IMG/VR virus record: IMGVR_UViG_3300049830_000163
Coordinates: 1 to 46,912 of that record
DNA length: 46,912 nucleotides
Reading direction: 5' to 3' (one strand)
Origin: a virus
The first letter of the stretch is position 1. Every line of letters begins with the position of its first letter. Positions 11,247-42,065 of this stretch are shown in pieces. The notes under the pieces were generated by a model. That model saw only the letters and a list, made by a program, of their open reading frames with translations. It was not told where the DNA came from and did no database searches. The translations under genes and the position numbers were made by a program.

Positions 11247-13771
11247 AGCACCTATTCCCCTTCATCCTCGGCTTTTGCTTAGTAACAGACTGCGCCGACG
11301 CTCAAATCTACCGCGTGAAGCACTTCAGCGGCGCGGCTCGATCCGCATCACCCGTGGTCGTTCCTGGCGTCTCGCCGCCGACAGTGAACACCACCACCCG
11401 TCAGATGTCCTACGGCGTGAACGACATTACGCCGACCAGCCACGGTAGCCCGGGCGACAACGGGTACGGCCTTCGCGGCTCAATCCGCTGGGATGCCACG
11501 CCCTTTGTGGAGTACAGCGGGGTCGTTCAGCTTGGCCTCTTCGCTTACCACCCGCCCACGGATGCTGAGAAGGCCGCGGGCTTGGCGAATAACGTCGGCA
11601 GCGTTCGGGTCCGGTGCGACAAGGGCGCTTGGGTCACGATCCCTCAGACCAGCGTCAACGCTTCGGCGGGAGGCGTGATAGACTGGAACGTCACGCTCAA
11701 CATAAATGGTGCGTGGTCGGATGGCCTACACACCTGCGATGCGGTGGCGATCCCCTATACCGGCCCAGACATCATCGCCGAGGGGCCGCCACAAGACGCC
11801 TACGTCCATCTCCACGATCAGGCGAAGGCGCTCAACGCGGCGATCGACAACGGGTCAGGCGCCGCCGGGAGCACGCTAAGCATCTACGACACGACGCTTT
11901 TCACCTGGCAGAACGGTACCACCTCCGAGACTATTCTGAGTATTGGACACTCGGTCTCGATGGTCGGCGTCGCGCCCAACACGTTTATCGACGGCACCAG
12001 CACGGTCAACCCGACAGCATGTGTAGCTGACACGGGCTCCAACTGCACTGGTGCGGGCCTGGCCGGCACTTACCATGTCAACGTAGGATCACAGACGGTC
12101 CACGGCGCTGACTTCACCGCGACGATCTCCGGCACCGTCATGACCGTGACCGCCGTCAGTGGCTCCGGCAACGTCCAGCCGGGCTACAACCTCTTCGGCT
12201 CCGGGGTGACGGGCGGGACGAAGATCACCTGCAGCACGACATGCACGGGCACGCATTGCGGTTCAGTCTGTACCGGCGCGGGCTACACCGGCACCTATGA
12301 ACTCAGCACCAGTTCCACCGTTGGATCTCCGACCTCGATGCAAACCGCCGAGGGCGCGAGCTTTGGAAACCTCAGCAGCTACACCTTCATCACCAATTTC
12401 AGCGGCACCCTGGCGCGCAAAAAATACTACGTCTCCCTGTCGGGCAGCAACGCCAATGACGGGCTGACCTCAGCGACGCCCGTGGCCGATATCGGACGGG
12501 CGCAGCAGCTAGCCTCGCTTCTGGCAAACGGCGGCCTCTACGGCTCCGTGGTGTGCTTGATGAACGGCAGCACCTATAGCTATGCCGGCTCAACCGCCAT
12601 TCCCTGGTCTTCGCAGGGCTGGACACAGATCGTCGGCGCTGATCAGCCGCCGTGTTCCGTTGGGGGCGACCCCGGCAATCCCACGCTCAACGTCATTTCG
12701 ACAGATCGGACCTACTTTCCGCTTCATACGATGTGGAAATACCTCAACCTCAAAGGCAACCCGAGCACGCAGAATTCGGCGACGGGCTGGTATCTGGCCG
12801 TCGATCACGTCACGCAGAAGAAGGAGTTAACCGGGCTCGGGGGACTGTTGCAAAACGGCGCGTACACCTGCGTCGAGAGCACTAGCTGGTTCGGGACAGA
12901 CGGGGGTTGCTCCGGCGCGGTCCTCAGCCGCAATGTGACGGGCAAATACATCATTGCAGACTGCGCCCACCAAATTCCGGTGCTGGTGAATGAGACATGC
13001 GAGTACGCCGGGCCTAACCTCTATTGGGCGACAGGAACGTCAACGTCTGGTTCAAACGTCATCACTGGAATTTCGTTCGTGCCGTCTGAGTTGTCAAGCT
13101 ACGTCGCGTCTGACATATGGCTCGCGACGGCAAATCCGAGCATCGCGCCCTTCACTACGGCGGCGGGGGTGTTCCAGGCGGGTACGGCAGCGACTTCCTG
13201 CTTCCCTGGAACCTATACGGGCGTGACAAACCTGACGCAGCTTTACGTCGGCGCGGTCACTAGCAACTCAATCACGGTGGTGGATTGGACGGGAAACCCC
13301 GTCAATGCGGTATCGACTTGCGTCAACGGAACCCTGGCGTCCCTGGGGGCTCACTCCGATGCCCTTCAGGAGCAGATCGGAATTCCGATCCACGACATTT
13401 ATCTTGTGGGAAACAGCTTCCTGAAGAACTCTACCGGAAATCAACAGGGTTTGTTCCTGGAGTACATCGGCATCGGGAATAGTTATATTGCGCAAAATTG
13501 GTTTAACAGCGCCGCCCTGGACGCTGAAAGCATGGTGCTAATTAACGGCGGTAACGAGAACATCATTCTTACGCAGAATATCTTCCAGCAGAACAAGTCT
13601 GTGCGCCTCGACACCGATGGATCTCACGTCACCAACTCCAAGAACGCGACCATGATCGGCGACCAGTGCATGGCCGGCGTACCGACCCCGCCCTCGTTCA
13701 ACGGCAGCGGAACGAACGTGCGGCGGCTGGCTAATATCAGCAGCCAGTGTTATACTACCACAACCCCCTAG
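11240..13771 (+). CDS. Secreted tailspike-like protein (beta-helix type)
   Basis: This 843-aa protein has a signal peptide ending A-D-A/Q (cleavage after about residue 21). The N-terminal 190 residues are beta-rich. A Cys-rich middle follows, and near residue 395 the segment 'KKYYVSLSGSNANDGLTSAT' appears. This is the usual entry to right-handed parallel beta-helix domains of pectate-lyase type, which continues to the C-terminus ('NSFLKNSTGNQQG', 'NENIILTQNIFQQN'). There are about 18 cysteines after the signal peptide, unusual for a cytosol-assembled virion protein. It could be an exported polysaccharide depolymerase or a spike. Confidence 0.68.
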   Translation: MLKHLFPFILGFCLVTDCADAQIYRVKHFSGAARSASPVVVPGVSPPTVNTTTRQMSYGVNDITPTSHGSPGDNGYGLRGSIRWDATPFVEYSGVVQLGLFAYHPPTDAEKAAGLANNVGSVRVRCDKGAWVTIPQTSVNASAGGVIDWNVTLNINGAWSDGLHTCDAVAIPYTGPDIIAEGPPQDAYVHLHDQAKALNAAIDNGSGAAGSTLSIYDTTLFTWQNGTTSETILSIGHSVSMVGVAPNTFIDGTSTVNPTACVADTGSNCTGAGLAGTYHVNVGSQTVHGADFTATISGTVMTVTAVSGSGNVQPGYNLFGSGVTGGTKITCSTTCTGTHCGSVCTGAGYTGTYELSTSSTVGSPTSMQTAEGASFGNLSSYTFITNFSGTLARKKYYVSLSGSNANDGLTSATPVADIGRAQQLASLLANGGLYGSVVCLMNGSTYSYAGSTAIPWSSQGWTQIVGADQPPCSVGGDPGNPTLNVISTDRTYFPLHTMWKYLNLKGNPSTQNSATGWYLAVDHVTQKKELTGLGGLLQNGAYTCVESTSWFGTDGGCSGAVLSRNVTGKYIIADCAHQIPVLVNETCEYAGPNLYWATGTSTSGSNVITGISFVPSELSSYVASDIWLATANPSIAPFTTAAGVFQAGTAATSCFPGTYTGVTNLTQLYVGAVTSNSITVVDWTGNPVNAVSTCVNGTLASLGAHSDALQEQIGIPIHDIYLVGNSFLKNSTGNQQGLFLEYIGIGNSYIAQNWFNSAALDAESMVLINGGNENIILTQNIFQQNKSVRLDTDGSHVTNSKNATMIGDQCMAGVPTPPSFNGSGTNVRRLANISSQCYTTTTP

Positions 13772-30387: not shown

Positions 30388-30720
30388 ATGCCGTCGAGTC
30401 TAGCTGTACACCGCGAAGAGTTCAATGACGTAGTTGATACTCTGCAGAAACACCTGACAGATTGTGCTGTGGAGAATGGGAAGACTCAGAAGTCTATTAC
30501 TGAGTTGACTCAATCCGTCCATGGTGTCACGGAATTGATTGAGGGGATCAAAAGCCTTTTCTGGAAAGCGTTTCTTGCTATGGTCGGCGCGCTAGTAACG
30601 GTAGGGGTTACAATCCTGGTTCAGAATTGGTCTCTTCGAACCAACGCAGACTCGGTGCATAAAGAACTATCAGACCGACAAGTTGACCGGATTGTTCAGG
30701 AAGTCCGTAAGATTCAGTGA
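30388..30720 (+). CDS. Membrane-anchored coiled-coil protein (XhlA/spanin-like)
   Basis: This 110-aa protein has about 55 residues of coiled coil ('FNDVVDTLQKHLTDCAVENG', 'SITELTQSVHGVTELIEGI'), one membrane span (about residues 58-80, 'AFLAMVGALVTVGVTILVQNW') and a charged 30-residue end. The plan is that of XhlA-type lysis accessory proteins; an inner-membrane spanin subunit is an alternative. AGGAAGGA precedes the ATG. Its stop overlaps the convergent minus-strand gene by seven bases. Confidence 0.65.
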   Translation: MPSSLAVHREEFNDVVDTLQKHLTDCAVENGKTQKSITELTQSVHGVTELIEGIKSLFWKAFLAMVGALVTVGVTILVQNWSLRTNADSVHKELSDRQVDRIVQEVRKIQ

Positions 30721-31928
30721 CGAGAGTTAGGGGCATAGGCGGGCCTCCCACCCGGCCCGCTTATGTCCGCGACTTTCAAGTACCCCGCCTCGATGCAGTG
30801 CTTTAAGATATTAGTGACTGCATAGTGCGGGGCCTTCTCCCCGATGAAATGAATGATGCGGTGCTCCGCAACGGGTTTGCCCTCCCGCGCGTAGAGCTTG
30901 GCAACGAAGTTGTACGTCTCGTTGTACCAGTCCACGTCCCCGATTTTCATTGATCGGAATACATCTGGCATCCGTTCCTCAGTGAGCAAGAACAAATCCA
31001 TCGCGAGTTGGTAGTCCTCCATTCGTATGACCAGTTCGTCAGAACGGGAAGCGCTGAAGACCATCGCCAACTTAAGCAGGTGTACGGGTCGGCGAGGGAG
31101 GTAGTGCTCAAGCTTGGGGTGATCTGGGATCGGCGGACATGAAAGCTGATACCAGCGATTGAAGAGTTCTGAGACATCGGTGGCCAACTGGAACTGACCG
31201 TATAAGCTAGATATATGAGCAAGGTCAATATGCAGAAGATTAGAAAGGTTCTCATCGCTGTCACGCTCCTCGAAGAAGTCGTTGAGTAAGACTCGATCGG
31301 CCGAGAAGACGAGGCAGAGGCGGGAGGCAAAGCCCTCGGACCAGGCGTGATCGGGGAGGTTTTTACCAAGCCACGCGGGCGTCGTACCGGCGATAAGGTT
31401 TAGCTGGGGGGAAGGAAGCTCGATCGAGTCTTTCATATGTCGCTTCTTCTCTTTATAAGGTACGCAATCCCAGAGGTCGTTTAGCGTGGACATGAACTCG
31501 CCGTCGTAGGCTGTGATGAAAGTGCCGAACTCGGTGGCGCCGACGGATAGGGAGTTGAATTTGACATACGGGTTGAGTTCTGTTGGGCGAAGAATACTCC
31601 GTTCGGCCTCGACAAGACTATCGATGAGAGAAGCACGCGAGACGGAACTGGGGGCGACGTGAAGCTCAGGAACGCTGCGCCACATATCGAGGGTTCCGCG
31701 AAGGGCGTCAGTTTTACCAACGCCCGGCGGGCCGACGAGAAGGGCGTAGAGGTTCGGGTACATGATCCGCTTCCCTGCGCGGAGCCAGACCTTACGTTCG
31801 AGCGCGCCCGCGATGGTGATCGCTGCGGCCCACGTGCGGAAGATGAGGGGGGATTGCGTGCCGTCAGTCCACTGGACGAAACTTTCGATCCATTGGGGCA
31901 ACCCTCTTGCTCCGCTTACGCTCGTCAT
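30714..31928 (-). CDS. P-loop replication protein (DUF3987-like)
   Basis: This 404-aa protein has Walker A GPPGVGKT at residues 66-73, preceded by 'SPLIFRTWAAAITIAGALE', an arrangement seen in DUF3987-type primase/helicase-associated ATPases of phages and mobile elements. The C-terminal third is a winged-helix-like region ('EHRIIHFIGEKAPHYAVTNIL'). It directly follows the DNA polymerase gene, overlapping it by 65 nt, so a helicase or loader role at the fork is likely. AAGGA lies 11 nt upstream of the ATG. It ends tail-to-tail with the last late gene. Confidence 0.72.
   Translation of the reverse strand: MTSVSGARGLPQWIESFVQWTDGTQSPLIFRTWAAAITIAGALERKVWLRAGKRIMYPNLYALLVGPPGVGKTDALRGTLDMWRSVPELHVAPSSVSRASLIDSLVEAERSILRPTELNPYVKFNSLSVGATEFGTFITAYDGEFMSTLNDLWDCVPYKEKKRHMKDSIELPSPQLNLIAGTTPAWLGKNLPDHAWSEGFASRLCLVFSADRVLLNDFFEERDSDENLSNLLHIDLAHISSLYGQFQLATDVSELFNRWYQLSCPPIPDHPKLEHYLPRRPVHLLKLAMVFSASRSDELVIRMEDYQLAMDLFLLTEERMPDVFRSMKIGDVDWYNETYNFVAKLYAREGKPVAEHRIIHFIGEKAPHYAVTNILKHCIEAGYLKVADISGPGGRPAYAPNSRH
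30735..30764. terminator. Hairpin at the convergent junction of late and early blocks
   Basis: An 11-bp stem with one G-T pair (ATAGGCGGGCC 30735-30745, GGCCCGCTTAT 30754-30764) and an 8-base loop lies inside the 3' end of the minus-strand gene, 15 bases after the last late stop codon. No T-tract follows, so termination is plausible but not proven. Confidence 0.45.
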
Positions 31929-33447
31929 GACCGCTGTAATCCTTCATCCCATCTGGGTTTTTACCAGAGTTCTTCTTATCGTACTTGCCCCAATTCCAAC
32001 CGACGGCTACATCGTGCGGGACGATGAGAGAGCGGTTGTTCATCAGGGGTAACTCGACCTTGATAGTTTCCAGGATCTGGGGGATGAGTTCGTCTTCGCG
32101 GCGTTCGTCGTACTGGATTAAGATTGCGTCATGAACAGGGATGAGGATTTCGACCGAAGGCAGGCGGGCGCGCCAAAGCTGGAGGAGGCCGGTCTGGTTA
32201 AGGAAGGCCTCGATGTCTTGGGGCTCGTAAGCCGCTGCGGCCTTTACGGTTTCTTCCTCGAAGCGTCGTCCGAAGAAATGTCTACGGCGTCCAGTAGCTG
32301 TAGTAATGAAGCCGTCCTTCGCGAGCTTAGCACGTAGCCACTTGTGCCAGCGTTCAATAGCAGGGAAACCAGAGAAGTAACTGAGCTGAAACTGCTGGAT
32401 GAGGGACATTGGGATGCGAGTTTGCTTAGAAAGTTCTCGAGGGCTTCCCAGGAAATTAGTACCGTGACCGAGTTTCTTTGATCCTTGACGGTAAGAATCC
32501 ACTCGGTAGAACGGGGCGTCCGCAAGCGCGCGGTTATGCTTATACCACTCAGGGTTCGTGAGAGCTTCAATACCTGTACCATGCCAGTCCATATCCTTCC
32601 AAGTGAGCATACAGACGCCGGTGTGTAGATCGCCGGACTCGCAGAAGTCGAGGTAGGTTCCGTCAGAAAAGAGGTTCCAGCAGATGGCACCGACGGCGCG
32701 GGACTGAACCTGGGCGAGGTCTATGTAGGCGAACTTCTTTCCGGGATCAGCTACGAAGATACGTCGAAGTTCTTCAGTGATATTCTGTAGGTTTGTTCCT
32801 GATCCGAAGCTTGAAGAGTAAGATGAAAGGCGTCCGGTGTCTGTTCCAGCAATATTGTAACTGGTCCGCATTCGACCATCGCGGTCAATGCCTGTAGCAA
32901 GGACGCCGAGTTTTTTATTAAAGTCGCGGATGGAGAGAATGTGCTCCACGATGGGCTGTACCAGGAAATGGGTTCGGAGTTTTTCGAGAGTACCCCGGTC
33001 CACAGTAACTGCGCCGCGTTTGCGGATTGGTTTAATGCCACATCTGACATAGAAGAAGTCCTTCAGTCGGTGAGGGGAATTCCAGATATGCTTCTCGACA
33101 AGGGCGCCCCGCTCACGGATAGTCCACGTGACTTCCTCGGGCGAAAGGCCGACGCCTTCGGTAAGGATTTCTCGAAGGCCGGTCTCGACATGGGTGCGTT
33201 GTTCAAGGAGTTCCGCACCCACTTCCGCGATCAGGGATCGATCGACGAGGATGCCTCGGCATTCCATCTCGAGGATGGGGCCTTGGAGGGCGAGGGCGCG
33301 TTGGTAGATTGGGCGGGTGACAGCGTCCAGCTGCGGCTCGATAGCCTCGAGGACTTCGAGAGTTATCATACAGTCAAGGCCGTTGTAGAACCATAGGCCC
33401 TCAGTGAGGGAGGGTGGGGTTCCGAGGGAGGTCTGGAAGACTTTCAT
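31864..33447 (-). CDS. Family A DNA polymerase, polymerase part
   Basis: This 527-aa protein starts at an ATG directly after the TAG of the upstream exonuclease gene and in the same frame. The first 30 residues carry the ExoIII motif (YNGLD, 21-25) of a 3'-5' exonuclease whose ExoI and ExoII lie in the previous frame. Polymerase motif A is DLAQVQSR (243-250), where the usual E is Q. Motif B is RQGSKKLGHG (320-329), with H where Pol I has F/Y. Motif C is VHDA (438-441), not VHDE. The two catalytic aspartates D243 and D440 are present. It is the replicative polymerase. Confidence 0.9.
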   Translation of the reverse strand: MKVFQTSLGTPPSLTEGLWFYNGLDCMITLEVLEAIEPQLDAVTRPIYQRALALQGPILEMECRGILVDRSLIAEVGAELLEQRTHVETGLREILTEGVGLSPEEVTWTIRERGALVEKHIWNSPHRLKDFFYVRCGIKPIRKRGAVTVDRGTLEKLRTHFLVQPIVEHILSIRDFNKKLGVLATGIDRDGRMRTSYNIAGTDTGRLSSYSSSFGSGTNLQNITEELRRIFVADPGKKFAYIDLAQVQSRAVGAICWNLFSDGTYLDFCESGDLHTGVCMLTWKDMDWHGTGIEALTNPEWYKHNRALADAPFYRVDSYRQGSKKLGHGTNFLGSPRELSKQTRIPMSLIQQFQLSYFSGFPAIERWHKWLRAKLAKDGFITTATGRRRHFFGRRFEEETVKAAAAYEPQDIEAFLNQTGLLQLWRARLPSVEILIPVHDAILIQYDERREDELIPQILETIKVELPLMNNRSLIVPHDVAVGWNWGKYDKKNSGKNPDGMKDYSGHDERKRSKRVAPMDRKFRPVD

Positions 33448-33450
33448 CTA
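33448..33450 (-). other. In-frame TAG between exonuclease and polymerase
   Basis: This TAG is followed without a gap by the polymerase ATG in the same frame. Readthrough or suppression would give an 869-aa UDG-Exo-Pol protein (341 + 1 + 527), a normal length for that fusion. Without readthrough, the GGAGGAG just before TAG allows reinitiation. Confidence 0.85.
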
Positions 33451-34473
33451 CTCCTCCTTCTTGATTGAGTGCTCTCCACGCGGGCGCTCGACCTTCCAGG
33501 CAGACTCGTTTGTGTAGACCGAGCCAAGGAAGCCGAGGCCTTTGTCGGACTCGGGCTGGAGCGCGTGGTGGAGAAGCATGGTGTCGTGGGTATAGTTGTG
33601 AACGGGGATACCGTAAGCCATCCAAAGATACTGGATATCGTAAAGGCCGTTCTGACCTAACTTCACGGCGGGGAGGGAAAGGATCTGAGCAACCAAATCC
33701 CAGGCGGTAAGCTCGTCTGCCAGAGTTCGCCAATAGTTAGCCTCGGGCCTGGTTGCGTCAACAAATGGTATAACGAGCGCGCGCTCAATACTGGCGGCAA
33801 AGCCGATGCAGGTGATTTGTCCGCTGGCGGTTTCGATGTCGAAGGATATTCGGGCGGCGCTATCCAGATATTCTCGCTTGAAGGCTCTGACATCTTCAAT
33901 CGTTTCGGCCACTTGAACTATTCGGGCGGGTCGGCGAAGTTCGGGAAACTCTCCTTCTCGTTTGGCTTTGATCCAGTCAAGTACGGTAACGTGACGAAGA
34001 GAGTATTCTCTGGTAACAGCTCGCGGGTGGTATGTCGGGAGACATTTGAGCCCGGGAACTGAAGAACTATGGCAGGCGGTACCTCGGATTTTAGATACTG
34101 CTTGAGTGTCCAGGAGGGCCCAACAAGCAATGGGTCCAAGGAGAAGGGCCACGTTAGGTTCCAACGCGGCAAGCTCTGAATGTAGTCGACGAATTTCTCC
34201 AGCGTGCTCTCGCTTGAGATAAAGCCCAGGAAGGATAGAGCGAAGACCGGGCTCGCGCTCGGGGGATTTGGGAGGGCAGCAAAGAGACTCGAGCCCCGCT
34301 GCGGGCTGTAGTGCGAAGACGGTTGTGATGAAGCATTCGGAACGCTCGATGCCGGCGTCTCGGAGGAGGGCGTCGAACTGGTTTGCAGCTTGCCCGACGA
34401 ACGGACGTTTCCAGAGGGCTTCCTCGGGGCCATAGTAATCTCCTATGATGGCGATTTTAAATTGGTTCGGCAT
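33448..34473 (-). CDS. Uracil-DNA glycosylase-like domain plus 3'-5' exonuclease part
   Basis: This 341-aa protein has an N-terminal family-4-type uracil-DNA glycosylase fold: 'IIGDYYGPEEALWKRPFVGQAA' in the place of the usual GEAPG...GRPFVG motif, and PTYHPRAV at 146-153. Next comes a DnaQ-like exonuclease with ExoI (FDIET, D212/E214) and ExoII (N275-G-L-Y-D279). ExoIII lies only after the stop, in the next gene. The last codons (K-K-E-E, AAGAAGGAGGAG) double as a Shine-Dalgarno for the polymerase ATG. UDG-Exo-Pol fusions are known, for example in SPO1, so this is a naturally fused protein with one in-frame TAG. ATG 34473 has GGAGG upstream. Confidence 0.85.
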   Translation of the reverse strand: MPNQFKIAIIGDYYGPEEALWKRPFVGQAANQFDALLRDAGIERSECFITTVFALQPAAGLESLCCPPKSPEREPGLRSILPGLYLKREHAGEIRRLHSELAALEPNVALLLGPIACWALLDTQAVSKIRGTACHSSSVPGLKCLPTYHPRAVTREYSLRHVTVLDWIKAKREGEFPELRRPARIVQVAETIEDVRAFKREYLDSAARISFDIETASGQITCIGFAASIERALVIPFVDATRPEANYWRTLADELTAWDLVAQILSLPAVKLGQNGLYDIQYLWMAYGIPVHNYTHDTMLLHHALQPESDKGLGFLGSVYTNESAWKVERPRGEHSIKKEE

Positions 34474-35767
34474 CAAACGCCCTCCGGGCCGCGTCCGCGA
34501 AGTCGGAGTTTATCTCCAGGCCAATAAGGTTAGTGCAAGCCAAACTGCGAGCAGCCCGCAAAGCACTACCAGACCCACAAGTAGGATCAAGGAGTCGCGT
34601 GTTCTCATCGACAAACATCCTCATGAAGTGGCGGAGCATGACGGGGTTTTTCTCACTCATGTGCTCGCCAGTTCGGACGGTAGGCGCCGCGAAAGTGTTA
34701 GCGACAGATGAAATGATCTTACGATCTCCGTGGGAGCAGAGGAAGGCGACTTCGTATACGCGGCGAGGCCCTCGAGTCGGGTCTGGTAGCGTTCCGACAT
34801 TGTCGCTCTTGAACCATATAAGAGGGTAAGGGTCCACCCAAAAATGCTCAGAGAGCGCCGCGAGGGTTTCGGTATAGTAACGCATACTGAACCAGAATAG
34901 AATATGTCCGCTGCTGCCAAGGAGCTTCTCTCGATGCTCGATGAGAGCGCGGACGAGAGACCAGTAAAGTTCAGGGGTGTCCTCGTATCCTCCGAAGGCA
35001 TCGGAAGCTCCCTGGTTGAATTTGTTCGCGTTAATTCCGTAGGGGAAATCACAGTGGATGAAGTTAAAGGGTTGGCCAGAATAGGTTTCGACCCACTCGA
35101 GGAAGCTGGCTGTGATGATTGGGGAGGGTGGCTTTTCTGCCACCACTGAAGCCACGCCAGTGTGTCCATCGAAGGCGGTTCCATTGCCACTGGCAGGCTC
35201 CTTTGGGAACGAGACTTTGATCTGTGAAAGCTGATCCTGTTTCGCGCGCTCGGTCTGGCGCTGAACGATGCCGCGGGCGACGGAGAACTCTTTAACTTCC
35301 GCAAGTCGAGGGTTGCCCGCGCGGAGTTCTTTAGCGACAGCGATCTGCGCTTGCGCGTGACCACGGGATATGCCGGCTGAGTCGCCCGTTTCTTCGTAGG
35401 TGGTCTTGGGGTTCTCTTCGAGGTTGAGTTCGTGAAGGCGAAGCATGGCGAGGCAGCGGTCCTGCCAAGTCATGTCCTGGCGCTTGACGTTCTCCTCAAG
35501 CTCTATTTTGTATAGTTCCCGCTCGGGCAGGTCTTCGGCGAATGAAACTGGGATTGAAGTCCAACCGAGGAACTGACACGCTTTGAGACGGCGCTCACCA
35601 GCGATTAGTTTTCCATCTCGGCGGATGACAACGGGGTGGATGAGGCCGAGGCGCGAGATAGACTCGGCAAGTTCGGTGATGGACTCTTCGGAGATCTCGC
35701 GGCGCATTCGGGCTGCGCGATCGACCCAGATGGAACTGATGTTGGCTGAACTACCTGACGTTATCAT
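34457..35767 (-). CDS. ParB-like domain fused to DNA methyltransferase
   Basis: This 436-aa protein has an N-terminal ParB/Srx-like nuclease domain (residues about 25-100, 'LGLIHPVVIRRDGKLIAGERRLKA', with GERR at 57-60) and a helical HTH-like part. The C-terminal adenine/N4-cytosine methyltransferase has catalytic motif IV as DFPY (240-243) and the AdoMet-binding motif I as DPTCGSG (394-400). The order IV then I is that of the beta-type permuted class. It could protect phage DNA from host restriction or mark it for replication. It sits in the replication block and overlaps the UDG gene by 17 nt. Confidence 0.86.
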   Translation of the reverse strand: MITSGSSANISSIWVDRAARMRREISEESITELAESISRLGLIHPVVIRRDGKLIAGERRLKACQFLGWTSIPVSFAEDLPERELYKIELEENVKRQDMTWQDRCLAMLRLHELNLEENPKTTYEETGDSAGISRGHAQAQIAVAKELRAGNPRLAEVKEFSVARGIVQRQTERAKQDQLSQIKVSFPKEPASGNGTAFDGHTGVASVVAEKPPSPIITASFLEWVETYSGQPFNFIHCDFPYGINANKFNQGASDAFGGYEDTPELYWSLVRALIEHREKLLGSSGHILFWFSMRYYTETLAALSEHFWVDPYPLIWFKSDNVGTLPDPTRGPRRVYEVAFLCSHGDRKIISSVANTFAAPTVRTGEHMSEKNPVMLRHFMRMFVDENTRLLDPTCGSGSALRAARSLACTNLIGLEINSDFADAARRAFDAEPI

Positions 35768-36335: not shown

Positions 36336-37160
36336 TTATTCGCGGACGGCTTTGAAGAAGTCTGCGAGCCCCGTTTCGAGGGGCAGTCGATCAACTTCCT
36401 TACGGAAGGAGATGGGGTTTTTCAGATCAACAATCCCTGTGGAGTTGGTCCGAATAATACGGTTGCCTGCATTGCCGGTGGACTCGACCATCAGCACGCA
36501 GTTGAAGTAGGCGGCGATCTGATCATTCAGAGCGGAGCCGATAGAGCGGGGGAAGCCCTTGGTGATCTCGAACTGGTTCTTGTCGTAGTTGATATGGGCG
36601 AGGACAAGCACGTTGGTCTGGAAGGAGGCGGAACAGAGGAGCTGGATGAGTTGCATCAGCATCTGCTGGGCCGCGAAGTAGTAGGACTGAGGCTCTTTTG
36701 CGCCGGGGTTCATGGCCTGGACGTAGCGGAACGCGGCCGCGGCTGCAGTGGTGAGGGTGTCGATGACGAGGACGGTGTCCTGGCCCCAATCCTGCGGCTT
36801 GCCGAGGTCCTCCTCGCCCTCCTTCCAGTGGTTGAGCTGCTTCATCGCGCGCGCGAAGGCGTTGGGCGTGCCATCTACGAAGGGCATGACCTTCATCGCG
36901 TTCCCGATCATCATCATCGGCGTGTCCAGGCCTTTCATCTTGTCGGTGAAAGTCTGGAACCGCACGTTGTCGATCTTATCGGGGCACTGGAGGTTGATGT
37001 AGCTGCGAAGAGGGTGCAGCAAATTGTCGAAGTCGTAGACGCGAAGTTTGTAGCCTGCGGCAACGAGGGAGGTTAGCCCGCCCGTCTTACCGCTGCCTGC
37101 GTCACCGAGGAGAAGACCCTTGACGAAGCGAGTTGAGTCGTGTTGGGTGAGGGCGGGCAT
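36336..37160 (-). CDS. RecA-like ATPase (Sak4/AAA_24 type)
   Basis: This 274-aa protein has Walker A GDAGSGKT at 19-26 and Walker B LVIDTL at 131-136, followed by 'LVLAHINYDKNQ' in the sensor position. This is the compact RecA-core plan of phage Sak4-type recombinases. It lies between a Cas4-like nuclease and a possible single-strand-binding protein, consistent with phage recombination or recombination-dependent replication. Its ATG overlaps the stop of the upstream 84-aa gene. Confidence 0.85.
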   Translation of the reverse strand: MPALTQHDSTRFVKGLLLGDAGSGKTGGLTSLVAAGYKLRVYDFDNLLHPLRSYINLQCPDKIDNVRFQTFTDKMKGLDTPMMMIGNAMKVMPFVDGTPNAFARAMKQLNHWKEGEEDLGKPQDWGQDTVLVIDTLTTAAAAAFRYVQAMNPGAKEPQSYYFAAQQMLMQLIQLLCSASFQTNVLVLAHINYDKNQFEITKGFPRSIGSALNDQIAAYFNCVLMVESTGNAGNRIIRTNSTGIVDLKNPISFRKEVDRLPLETGLADFFKAVRE

Positions 37161-37414
37161 CAGCTCGGCTTTCCTGGGATGAGAAGCTTCGGGGCGAGAG
37201 AGGGCTCCCGCTCGGAGACTTGAACGAGGGATAGAACGGCGAGGACGTTATGGCCGTTGAGGACGAAAGGGAAAGCTCCGCCGGGAAGCTTCATCTCCAC
37301 ACCGTAAGGTCCGGTGAGGATGATGGTTTGTGCGGTTCCCTGCGCGTCGGTGATAACGCGGGCGTTGCACATGAACTCGACGGAATTTGATTGGATGGAG
37401 ACTTCAGTTGTCAT
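37160..37414 (-). CDS. Hypothetical small protein between nuclease and ATPase
   Basis: This 84-aa, beta-rich protein ('SVEFMCNARVITDAQGTAQT', 'YGVEMKLPGGAFPFVLNGHN') starts at ATG 37414 within an ATGA overlap with the nuclease gene. Longer frames upstream overlap that gene and are not real. Its place inside a recombination cassette suggests a partner of the nuclease or ATPase. No family was recognised. Confidence 0.72.
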   Translation of the reverse strand: MTTEVSIQSNSVEFMCNARVITDAQGTAQTIILTGPYGVEMKLPGGAFPFVLNGHNVLAVLSLVQVSEREPSLAPKLLIPGKPS

Positions 37415-38325
37415 CGCGGCACCAGGGGATTCCAGAAGCGCTTCTCGAAGTAGGTCTCGAGGAAGCGTTCCCGCATCTCGGGGTCTTTCTTGCAGATGTC
37501 CTTGAAGACGCAGCCGCCGTAGTTGCCGCAGGACTTCAGGTTCATCGGCCACTGGTTAGCGTCAGCGTAACGCTCGACGTTGCGAAGGTGGAGTTCGGTA
37601 TTGACGAGCCACTCTTCTAGCTGCCCTTTGCTTCGCATGGTGAAGCCGCGGCCAAAAGTGGTCTGGCCGACTAGGATCGAGGCCGCGTCGATGATGACGC
37701 CCGCGAGGGGGAGATTGTAGACGACCTGGCCCGCGAGGGTGTATTGGGACATCTGGTTGTCGAGGTCGTATTGAGAGAAGTAGAAGGCGCCGAGGCCCCC
37801 GCCGGTGGTCTTCTGATCCATGACGAAGAGGTCGCCGGCGTAGTCTACAACGCGGTCGAGGTGGCCGCAGAGGAGGTACTCGGTTCCAAAGGGAGAGGCG
37901 ATACCGGACTCGAACTTGAATGAAAGCTCTGTCGCCGGGCGCCCATTGGCGAGGTGGATGATCTGGGCCGGGTCGTCTTTGTATTCCTCGAAGTACCAGA
38001 TGACGGTGCGGAGGAGGGTATCGCGGTTCTTTTTCGGGGAGTTATCGGGGTTCCACCCGTAGGACTCGCGAAGGACGTGATCCACCGCTACATCGAGAGC
38101 ATCTTCATGGTCTCCGCCTTGGGCGCGGGCGTGGAAATAGGCCTCCATGCTGGACGCGAAGATGGAGCCGAACTTGAGGTGGACAGACTCCTCGGTTTTG
38201 CGCCAACCTTGGATGATGGTGAGCTGGTACTTCCGTGGGCACTCCATAAGAAGGCCGAGGGACGTGGAGTCCCAGGCGGTCTGAAGCTGCGTGTCAGGGA
38301 AATAGAGGGAGGGAGCTTCGCTCAT
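37411..38325 (-). CDS. Cas4/AddB-like PD-(D/E)XK exonuclease with Fe-S cysteines
   Basis: This 304-aa protein has the RecB-family nuclease motifs GHLDRV (D157), MDQKTT (D170-Q-K172) and a QMSQY motif (191-195). A cysteine at C29 (LMECPRKYQ) together with C266, C272 and C278 near the C-terminus forms the four-cysteine pattern of 4Fe-4S Cas4/AddB-type nucleases. It probably resects DNA ends to feed the Sak4-like ATPase two genes on. Start and stop both overlap neighbours by four bases. Confidence 0.86.
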   Translation of the reverse strand: MSEAPSLYFPDTQLQTAWDSTSLGLLMECPRKYQLTIIQGWRKTEESVHLKFGSIFASSMEAYFHARAQGGDHEDALDVAVDHVLRESYGWNPDNSPKKNRDTLLRTVIWYFEEYKDDPAQIIHLANGRPATELSFKFESGIASPFGTEYLLCGHLDRVVDYAGDLFVMDQKTTGGGLGAFYFSQYDLDNQMSQYTLAGQVVYNLPLAGVIIDAASILVGQTTFGRGFTMRSKGQLEEWLVNTELHLRNVERYADANQWPMNLKSCGNYGGCVFKDICKKDPEMRERFLETYFEKRFWNPLVPR

Positions 38326-40295: not shown

Positions 40296-40582
40296 AGTTC
40301 AACAACCGTGAGAGGGGACTGCCGAAGGATGCGCACGCCGGGGCCGTCGGCCCGGATATCCAGTGTATCCCAGGAGGAAGTTCCTCGGCGCGGGTCTTCG
40401 ATCTCGTAGATCTCCAAGGAGGCCTTGCGGTCTAGCGTCCGTAAGGTGTTGAAGCGCTGCGCGAGGTAGATGGCTTTGCCCGAGGTAGCGGTTCGGATGA
40501 GAAGTCCATTCTCAGACTCGAGGGCTTGGTCGAGATACTTACGGATGTCTTCGTAAGCCTCGAGGTTCTTAGGCATCGGCAC
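40292..40582 (-). CDS. Hypothetical early protein
   Basis: This protein of 96 aa (GTG 40582; ATG 40576 is an alternative) begins inside the end of the helicase gene. A helix ('YEDIRKYLDQALESENGLLI') is followed by strands ('KASLEIYEIEDPRRG', 'GVRILRQSPLTVVEL'). No family was recognised. The coupling to the helicase gene suggests shared early expression. Confidence 0.68.
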   Translation of the reverse strand: MPMPKNLEAYEDIRKYLDQALESENGLLIRTATSGKAIYLAQRFNTLRTLDRKASLEIYEIEDPRRGTSSWDTLDIRADGPGVRILRQSPLTVVEL

Positions 40583-42065
40583 GGAAGGCCTCGCTTTCTA
40601 CAAGGTAAAGGGTGTCCTGGGCGCGGGTTTCGATGACGTAACGGACGTTGTACTCTTGCTCCAGCTTCGTCGGGTCGCCCGTTGTAGCCGCGCGGAGGGC
40701 GTATTTGCTGGGGATGAGTTGTGGGTCCAGGTGGAAGACGACGGGGAACTCGAGTCCTTTAGCCTTGTGTCCCGTCATGAGTTTGACGGAGCCCGTGGCC
40801 TCGAAGAGGTGGGTTGCGAAAGCGATGGAGGCGCCGAGGGTCGTGCCCGCGTCAGCGAAGACGCGGAGGCAGTCGGCTTTGTCGTGTATCGGCGTATGGC
40901 GGGCCTCGCGGGCTTTGCTGAGTTCCTTATTCTCCCATTCGGAAATGCAGGATAGGACGGAGACGTGTGGGAGGTCGTCTTTGCCGAACTTGCGGAGAAT
41001 TGTAATTAGGCTTTTCCCAATATCTCCTTTAGAGATTTCAACTCCTCTTCCCGCACGAATGAGCCGGAGAGCAATCGAAAAAAGAGGCGCGTTACTGCGG
41101 CAGATAATGGCGGCATCCGCCGGGATGACCGATACTCCCCATTCTTCCAGTGCTTCAACCTTACCTGGTCTGGCCCAATCTGGATATGCCATGTGTGGCG
41201 CACGCCAGCGTGCTCGCTCGACAACCGATATAGGACATCTGAAGCTAACATTGAGTGGGTACTCCTTCATTGAGAATTCCTCCTTGAGGAGGGACATTGA
41301 GGATGAGTGTGCTCCGCGGAAACCGTAGATGGCTTGGAAGGGATCGCCTACGACGACGAGGCGCCCGCCGTACATGCGGCGGATCATCTCGTGATTCATG
41401 GGGGAGAGGTCTTGAGCTTCGTCGACTAGGATGATGGGGAAGGTTGGGAACGGGGCGGAGAAGCAGACGGACATATAGATCTGGTCATCGAAGTCGATGA
41501 CGCCCTCGAAGGCGGACGTGATGGAGATGGAGAGGATTTCGTCAAGGAGTTCAGCGAATTCGGGTGTGGGCTCGACATCGAGGTCGGCCGCGATGGCGTC
41601 GAGGAAGGGCTCGCGCTCGGTGAGGGTGGAACCGAAGGCGCGGCCGTACTGGGGTACGTAGCCGTTTGACTTCGCGAGGCGGGCAGCGCGGAGAAGGGAG
41701 GAGAACATTTCGCCGTAGAGTTTCTTTTGCTCGGGCCGCGCTTTTTCGAGGATGGTAGAAAAGATCGTGTAGAGCTTATCCGCTTTGACGGTGAGGCGCT
41801 TGCCGATTTTCTGGCCCCAGGCCGCGTGACCGAGGGCGTTCATGGTTTTGCAGGTGATGTGGGCGGGCATCCGCTTAGTCATCTCGTCCGCGATCTTTTT
41901 GTTGAAAGCGCAGCAGAGGGTGGGGACGAGGGGAAGCTTCTGGGCGAAGAGGGTGAGAGTGGAGGTTTTGGCGGCGCCGGCGAGGGCGGACCAGATGGAG
42001 TTCTCTGGGATTCTGGCGGAGGCGATGATGGCGTTCTGCTCAGGGGTTAGAATGAATTCGGGCAT
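40569..42065 (-). CDS. SF1 (UvrD/Rep-like) DNA helicase
   Basis: This 498-aa protein has helicase motif I GAAKTS (30-35), motif II LVDEAQD (213-219), motif III GDPFQAIYGFRG (240-251), motif V TGHKAKGLEF (about 428-437) and motif VI 'YVIETRAQDTLYLV' (about 475-488). It is compact, with short inserted 1B/2B domains, as is usual for phage SF1A helicases. No replicative DnaB-type helicase was found, so it may serve replication as well as recombination. It overlaps both neighbours. Confidence 0.9.
   Translation of the reverse strand: MPEFILTPEQNAIIASARIPENSIWSALAGAAKTSTLTLFAQKLPLVPTLCCAFNKKIADEMTKRMPAHITCKTMNALGHAAWGQKIGKRLTVKADKLYTIFSTILEKARPEQKKLYGEMFSSLLRAARLAKSNGYVPQYGRAFGSTLTEREPFLDAIAADLDVEPTPEFAELLDEILSISITSAFEGVIDFDDQIYMSVCFSAPFPTFPIILVDEAQDLSPMNHEMIRRMYGGRLVVVGDPFQAIYGFRGAHSSSMSLLKEEFSMKEYPLNVSFRCPISVVERARWRAPHMAYPDWARPGKVEALEEWGVSVIPADAAIICRSNAPLFSIALRLIRAGRGVEISKGDIGKSLITILRKFGKDDLPHVSVLSCISEWENKELSKAREARHTPIHDKADCLRVFADAGTTLGASIAFATHLFEATGSVKLMTGHKAKGLEFPVVFHLDPQLIPSKYALRAATTGDPTKLEQEYNVRYVIETRAQDTLYLVESEAFRADA

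Follow-up and report, generated by a model that had tools for sequence, protein, structure and literature searches.

Several phage replication enzymes are known to be encoded in two pieces. The family B polymerase gp43 is split in Aeromonas phages 25 and 44RR and NrdA is split in phage Aeh1; according to a review, 43A and 43B of phage 25 co-purify with polymerase activity and split NrdA is fully functional. The same review describes fission by a free-standing homing endonuclease for nrdA and considers it for gp43 (PMC2988022). Such fission has been proposed for a mitochondrial cox2 (PMC5374615), jumbo phages carry a split Pol III alpha (PMC7824862), and the OM43 phages MEP401 and MEP402 encode a family A polymerase in two open reading frames (ORFs) that is cut inside the polymerase domain (PMC10580990). 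Here we describe a family A polymerase with an N-terminal UDG-like domain whose gene is cut elsewhere, between the ExoII and ExoIII motifs of the 3'-5' exonuclease. It lies on the minus strand of IMG/VR virus record IMGVR_UViG_3300049830_000163, which was analyzed over its 46,912 bases (the window), and consists of an upstream gene with the UDG-like domain, ExoI and ExoII (N-half) and a downstream gene with ExoIII and the polymerase domain (C-half).

The split clade to which this locus belongs resembles gp43 and NrdA in that a phage replication enzyme is divided between two ORFs. In those systems the ORFs are separated by untranslated sequence or by the gene of a homing endonuclease (PMC2988022). 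It differs from them in enzyme family, in a cut inside the proofreading site, in the extension of that cut to a whole clade, and in the many unrelated ORFs found in the gap. In MEP401 and MEP402 a small ORF lies between the two polymerase ORFs (PMC10580990), as in those split-clade loci that have a gap. Vibrio phage VS-ABTNL-3 (L163, 1756-4890) has a polymerase cut within the polymerase domain and a 184-aa ORF between the pieces, for which no Pfam match was found at 0.01. In the OM43 phages and VS-ABTNL-3, however, the exonuclease is whole on the first chain. Literature searches, mostly at listing level, returned no description of a polymerase split within its exonuclease part, and a search on the UDG fusion found no paper. 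Within the literature searched, the cut, its clade and its junction are new, whereas split phage polymerases as such were already known.

The N-half ends in TAG at 33448-33450 and the polymerase ATG follows directly in the same frame. This arrangement had been described in an earlier sequence-only reading, which did not name the strand. On the coding strand the codons here read AAG AAG GAG GAG TAG ATG AAA, with AAGAAGGAGGAGTAGATG at the junction. Among Pfam models, PF03167 (UDG) and the first part of PF01612 (DNA_pol_A_exo1) match the N-half, and PF00476 (DNA_pol_A; E=5.8e-25) matches the C-half. Against a cut-off of 23.6, DNA_pol_A_exo1 scored 21.5 bits with the N-half alone and 26.2 with the joined protein. 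Alignment of a profile of relatives to the Klenow fragment of E. coli DNA polymerase I located D.E of ExoI and N...D of ExoII in the N-half, and Y...D of ExoIII in the C-half, bearing out the earlier assignment of ExoI and ExoII to the region before the stop and ExoIII to the region after it. The length of 869 aa given earlier for a joined product is right when TAG is read as one residue.

A first IMG/VR scan with the C-half identified 10 relatives, and in these and Caulobacter phage Kuura the polymerase was cut at the same place (11/11), with gaps of 4 to ~1,360 nt. The Kuura record labels the N-half "hypothetical protein" and the C-half "DNA polymerase" and places two further hypothetical proteins between them; the available portion of the Kuura paper reports a DNA polymerase and mentions no split (PMC9959647). 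Alignment scans gave at least 579 and at least 585 relatives, and the best 80 of each were used, together with the best 80 of 247 from a scan for more distant relatives. Both halves were present in 149 of 158 first loci and in 62 of 64 new loci of the distant scan. Two loci came from a search of genome contigs, and a scan with the N-half of L014 found no match beyond L014 itself. Eleven loci with a single half were excluded from the counts, nine with the C-half (L031, L035, L036, L039, L042, L060, L091, L272, L283) and two with the N-half (L100, L132), all having at most ~750 nt of sequence on the missing side. After removal of copies, the comparison set held 150 distinct loci with both halves, the window included; distinct here means not identical over set stretches, so that near-copies persist among them.

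All 150 loci were cut at the same place. The halves were separated by ≤10 nt in 24 loci, 11-60 nt in 4, 61-200 nt in 15 and >200 nt in 107, over a range of -8 to 1,924 nt (the longest in L292). C-half starts were picked by rule (the first ATG from 8 nt before the N-half stop within a set stretch, else GTG or TTG), so individual gap values may be wrong by tens of bases. Because these starts were spread over the three frames (44, 50 and 56 loci), the in-frame, zero-gap arrangement of the window looks incidental. The N-half stops also varied, with 67 TGA, 31 TAA and 12 TAG in an earlier set of 110.

Residues of the divided exonuclease were almost invariant on both halves. With gaps set aside, the ExoI Asp and Glu were conserved in 147 of 147 loci, the ExoII Asn in 150 of 150 and the ExoII Asp in 149 of 150 (one Glu), and on the C-half the ExoIII Tyr and Asp were each conserved in 149 of 149. 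The polymerase motifs were intact, with the motif A Asp in 145/145, the motif B Arg and Lys in 145/145 and the motif C His and Asp in 141/141. The protein thus carries the residues of a family A polymerase and those of its exonuclease, but the latter across two chains. The exonuclease and polymerase motifs align with those of the Klenow fragment, which is a single chain without a UDG domain. In motif B, the split clade has His (145/145 loci with a letter there) at the position of a Phe in Klenow, and in motif C it has mostly HD[AS] (Ala behind HD in 98 of 141 loci and Ser in 41 of 141) as against HDE in Klenow. The UDG domain of the window scored 50.9 bits with Pfam UDG, above the cut-off, and 56.7 bits with NCBIfam UDG_fam4, below the cut-off of 125.3. 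Its UDG motif reads GDYYG, and many relatives have GEAPG. Across the 150 loci the corresponding position held Glu in 131, Asp in 8 (among them the window) and a gap in 9.

An AF2 model of the read-through chain was built from an alignment of 97 rows (the window, 18 fused relatives, 38 N-halves and 40 C-halves) and reached a pLDDT of 93.9 and a pTM of 0.91. Besides the C-terminal end, the sole stretch below 50 was at residues 333-351, spanning the cut. A model of a fused relative (L167) had its lowest block (61) at 341-350, in the equivalent loop, with other dips at 541-550 (63) and 251-260 (72). The top Foldseek matches in the PDB were Pol I/Klenow entries, 8oo6 (TM 0.54 by query, 0.76 by target) and 1kfs, and Pol I of phage G20c ranked fourth. 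The prediction fits a break in a surface loop followed by reassembly of the halves. Taken with the conserved residues, the most likely product of these genes is a polymerase that needs both chains and is predicted to assemble its proofreading site from the two.

The domain order of the split clade is also found in uncut genes. MW202489, Microcystis phage Mel-JY34 and a Desulfofustis phage encode UDG-Exo-Pol as one chain, and a scan for this fused family gave 205 relatives, the best 80 of which were all a single chain across ExoII-ExoIII. The polymerase part of 46 of 132 representatives (35 split, 11 fused) was used for a maximum-likelihood tree, in which these fused genes (MW202489, Mel-JY34 and the IMG/VR loci L167-L246) are the closest fused group with good sampling. 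The tree includes one long fused row (L162), and 14 of its 43 inner branches have values below 80, which makes its finer details less secure. All 35 split rows fell on one side of a 100/99 branch with a single change of state, so the cut arose once in this sample, without reversal. The window grouped with L001, L290, L014 and L305 at 100/97. In place of the single ORF of the fused relatives, the split clade has two complementary ORFs, as is expected of gene fission. The split ends are longer than the fused linker: 12-16 residues follow the N-half WK in 124 of 149 N-halves counted (in 18 others the tail was counted from an earlier WK), and the C-half often has ~20 residues before YNGLD.

The last codons of the N-half share a pattern. 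Near the stop, relatives mostly read K[KR][DE], with Lys at -4 in 131 of 150 loci, Arg or Lys at -3 in 124 and Asp or Glu at -2 in 145. This conserved tail was at first taken for a protein-binding motif. Codon usage shows instead a ribosome-binding site, which accounts for the tail at least in large part: AGG made up 47 of 76 Arg codons at -3 vs. 8% of Arg codons elsewhere in the N-halves, a Shine-Dalgarno-like word was present at 118 of 150 N-half ends vs. 18.5% of 3,000 background segments, and an ATG lay within -10 to +25 of the N-half stop in 147 of 150 loci vs. 1,093 of 3,000 random places. Because of these three features, we read the upstream gene's last codons as holding the ribosome-binding site of whichever gene follows, the C-half in the window and other ORFs elsewhere. 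The remark of the sequence-only reading that GGAGGAG before the TAG is an ideal site for reinitiation is correct and extends to the clade in general. The tail may also have a role in the protein.

What lies between the halves differs widely among loci. In the 87 loci with a gap of at least 100 nt, 135 ORFs were called by length and overlap, forming 78 sequence groups, 63 of them singletons; 60 of the 135 ORFs were scanned, so that each group is named after no more than a few of its members, in some cases a single one. Scanned members of the most frequent group (20/135; e.g., L003, L004, L050) match DUF7768, one member of the second group (12 ORFs) matches KTSC, and one of the third (7 ORFs) matches HNH_3. 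Other scanned ORFs matched endonuclease VII, nucleoside deoxyribosyltransferase, methyltransferase, pyrophosphatase, deoxyribonucleoside monophosphate phosphatase and nucleotide kinase families. PHROGs assigned nucleoside 2-deoxyribosyltransferase to 4 of the 60. The gap also differs between close relatives. Among 53 pairs with at least 80% nucleotide identity in the C-half, 23 differed by at least 60 nt in the gap; these 23 come from seven groups of loci and are not independent. Clean cases of an insert present in one locus and absent from another were L064 vs. L065 and L073, and L080 vs. L134.

An HNH gene was found at the junction in L007, L049, L088 and L128, and L311 and L316 carry genes there whose products are related to the L007 protein. 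L007, whose C-half matches that of L001 at 87%, has an HNH_3 gene behind the N-half stop, followed by a second copy of the N-half end. The last 63 nt of this remnant are identical to the end of the L001 gene at 61 of 63 positions. L007's own N-half end matches L001 at 46 of 63 and the remnant at 44 of 63, and the N-half before it matches L001 at 81%. The two ends code for nearly the same residues, and the remnant still reads IAWKPLRPRGKHMERREDEE-stop. This pattern would be expected if a homing gene had arrived together with a target end of different coding, and would also be left by recombination with a distant relative bearing an HNH gene. Other copies of N-half ends in gaps, in L086 (14 nt) and L296 (17 nt), were judged to be chance, and those in L311 and L316 were weak tblastx matches that were not convincing. 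With the L007 HNH protein as query, 10 loci were found, 8 of them distinct. Three of the eight genotypes (L007, L311, L316) have the gene at the split site, and it lies behind the C-half in L314 (~30 nt) and L315 (~0.6 kb); no polymerase was found within the available flank of L317-L319, L317 being truncated at its contig end. In the fused family, HNH_3 genes were found at the UDG/Exo boundary. L232 (3962-6627) encodes a UDG of 231 aa, an HNH_3 protein of 113 aa and an Exo-Pol of 571 aa, L186 is alike with the same insert, and in L234 (3965-6757) an HNH_3 ORF lies in another frame inside an open polymerase frame of 930 aa. The HNH genes at the junction, in one case accompanied by a repeat of the N-half end, suggest insertional fission.

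We consider it highly probable that the phage of the window has a family A polymerase of two chains, both contributing to the proofreading site, and that a large phage clade shares this cut. This explanation rests on the observation of a common cut in one clade, of conserved residues on both halves, of the Shine-Dalgarno-coding tail, of gap differences between close relatives and of HNH genes at the site in some relatives. Under it, chain 1 (UDG-like domain, ExoI and ExoII) and chain 2 (ExoIII and polymerase) would be translated separately, with translation of chain 2 starting at, or presumably coupled via, the ribosome-binding site in the last codons of chain 1. The chains would then associate non-covalently and rebuild a putatively active proofreading site with catalytic residues from both. 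The cut would most likely derive from insertional fission of a fused UDG-Exo-Pol gene, perhaps with a free-standing HNH endonuclease gene as the agent, and small genes would since then have been gained and lost at the junction, none being present in the window.

Several points weigh against this explanation. The window junction has neither an insert nor a homing endonuclease gene, and most inserts seen are of other kinds than HNH or endonuclease VII. Because just 4 of the 60 scanned intervening ORFs matched such models (25 of 33 families listed), an HNH origin of the first cut is an inference. The event in L007 is known from one locus and its relative L001. The structure prediction is of a single chain, and its placing of the halves leans on the 18 fused rows of the alignment. 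Rare fused members of the split clade could be missing from the best-80 sets. Finally, given the diverged UDG motif of the window, parts of chain 1 need not be active.

Each of the other explanations accounts for part of these data. The sequence-only reading held that a working proofreading domain needs either readthrough of the TAG or reassembly of two chains, and suggested that there may be a programmed switch between an 869-aa proofreading enzyme and a separate exo-deficient polymerase. With such a switch, some ribosomes would pass the TAG to make the long enzyme and others would stop, with a separate polymerase also being made. The halves in the window are indeed in frame without a gap. 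Passing one stop would join them in only 4 of the 150 loci, however, and through three different stops (TAG in the window and L112, TGA in L104, TAA in L138), for which reason readthrough fails as a general account; the gaps of >200 nt in 107 loci also speak against it. In the window, TAG ends 8 of 38 picked genes, including those terminating at 13771, 17854 and 30375 as noted earlier, and ARAGORN found no tRNA gene. We regard a programmed switch as very unlikely, and of the two possibilities raised, reassembly is the one we favor, with the site divided between chains. Joining by splicing, through an intron, an intein or a split intein, seems even less plausible. The OM43 phage paper notes that many polymerase genes of phages contain group I introns (PMC10580990), but in the window there is nothing between the halves to splice out, Rfam at the gathering score gave 0 matches in the window and 13 relatives, and the gaps contain the diverse ORFs described above. 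The short heads of the C-halves showed no likeness to intein ends when judged by eye, without an intein profile.

A further possibility is that the genes are unconnected and the exonuclease is dead, the first gene encoding a UDG-like protein with exonuclease remains and the second a polymerase that lacks proofreading. The sequence-only reading had named, as grounds for giving up its proposal, close relatives in which the two proteins are always separate and exonuclease motifs are complete on one side. The proteins are indeed separate in 150 of 150 loci, as this possibility predicts, but the motifs are divided in all of them and never complete on one side. Because the Exo residues are almost invariant on both halves, a decaying exonuclease is improbable, and the genes remain neighbors, with their order unchanged and never more than 1,924 nt between them. 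A false TAG from a sequencing or assembly error might be entertained for a single virus record such as the window; with 149 other distinct loci cut at the same place, including the isolate genome of Kuura, and with varying stops and gaps, it has next to no likelihood. A different extension of the two-chain polymerase is that the junction is a port in use. Since proofreading lies partly on a separate chain, the content of the gap could set the ratio of exonuclease to polymerase chains and so tune copying fidelity, whether the gap is empty, has a coupled start or contains cargo genes, of which several belong to nucleotide metabolism. HNH genes that bring along a copy of the N-half end would then prevent the port from closing. 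We consider this reading unlikely.

The coordinates of the split genes and of neighboring genes with PHROGs matches on the same strand are given in Table 1. The gene overlapping the start of the N-half gene encodes a single protein with ParB-like and DNA methyltransferase-like parts.

Table 1. Features of the split polymerase locus and neighboring genes in the window.
Feature	Coordinates	Strand	Remarks
N-half: UDG-like domain and ExoI/ExoII part of 3'-5' exonuclease, 341 aa, TAG end	33448..34473	-	Start ATG 34473, stop TAG 33450-33448; in-frame TTG at 34476
C-half: ExoIII and family A polymerase domain, 527 aa, ATG right behind TAG, TGA end	31864..33447	-	Start ATG 33447, stop TGA 31866-31864
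N-half stop TAG, same frame as C-half	33448..33450	-	
KKEE codons containing Shine-Dalgarno-like AAGGAGG for C-half start	33451..33462	-	
Predicted flexible loop at cut, model residues 333-351, pLDDT < 50	33421..33477	-	Coordinates derived from residue numbers
UDG motif GDYYG	34429-34443	-	
ParB-like and DNA methyltransferase-like protein	34457-35767	-	PHROGs
Primase	30714-31928	-	PHROGs
Sak4-like protein	36336-37160	-	PHROGs
Exonuclease	37411-38325	-	PHROGs
Helicase	40569-42065	-	PHROGs

For annotation, these loci mean that a phage polymerase gene seemingly without ExoI and ExoII may have both on an adjacent "hypothetical" gene, as in Kuura. Gene fission and turnover can be viewed in progress here, in close relatives that differ by an insert and in an HNH gene between two copies of a gene end. 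If confirmed, the enzyme would be a natural polymerase whose proofreading site is made of two gene products. It would then become testable how a divided active site stays in register, whether the supply of one chain can set proofreading, and by what means a phage survives when a mobile endonuclease gene that it carries breaks one of its essential genes.

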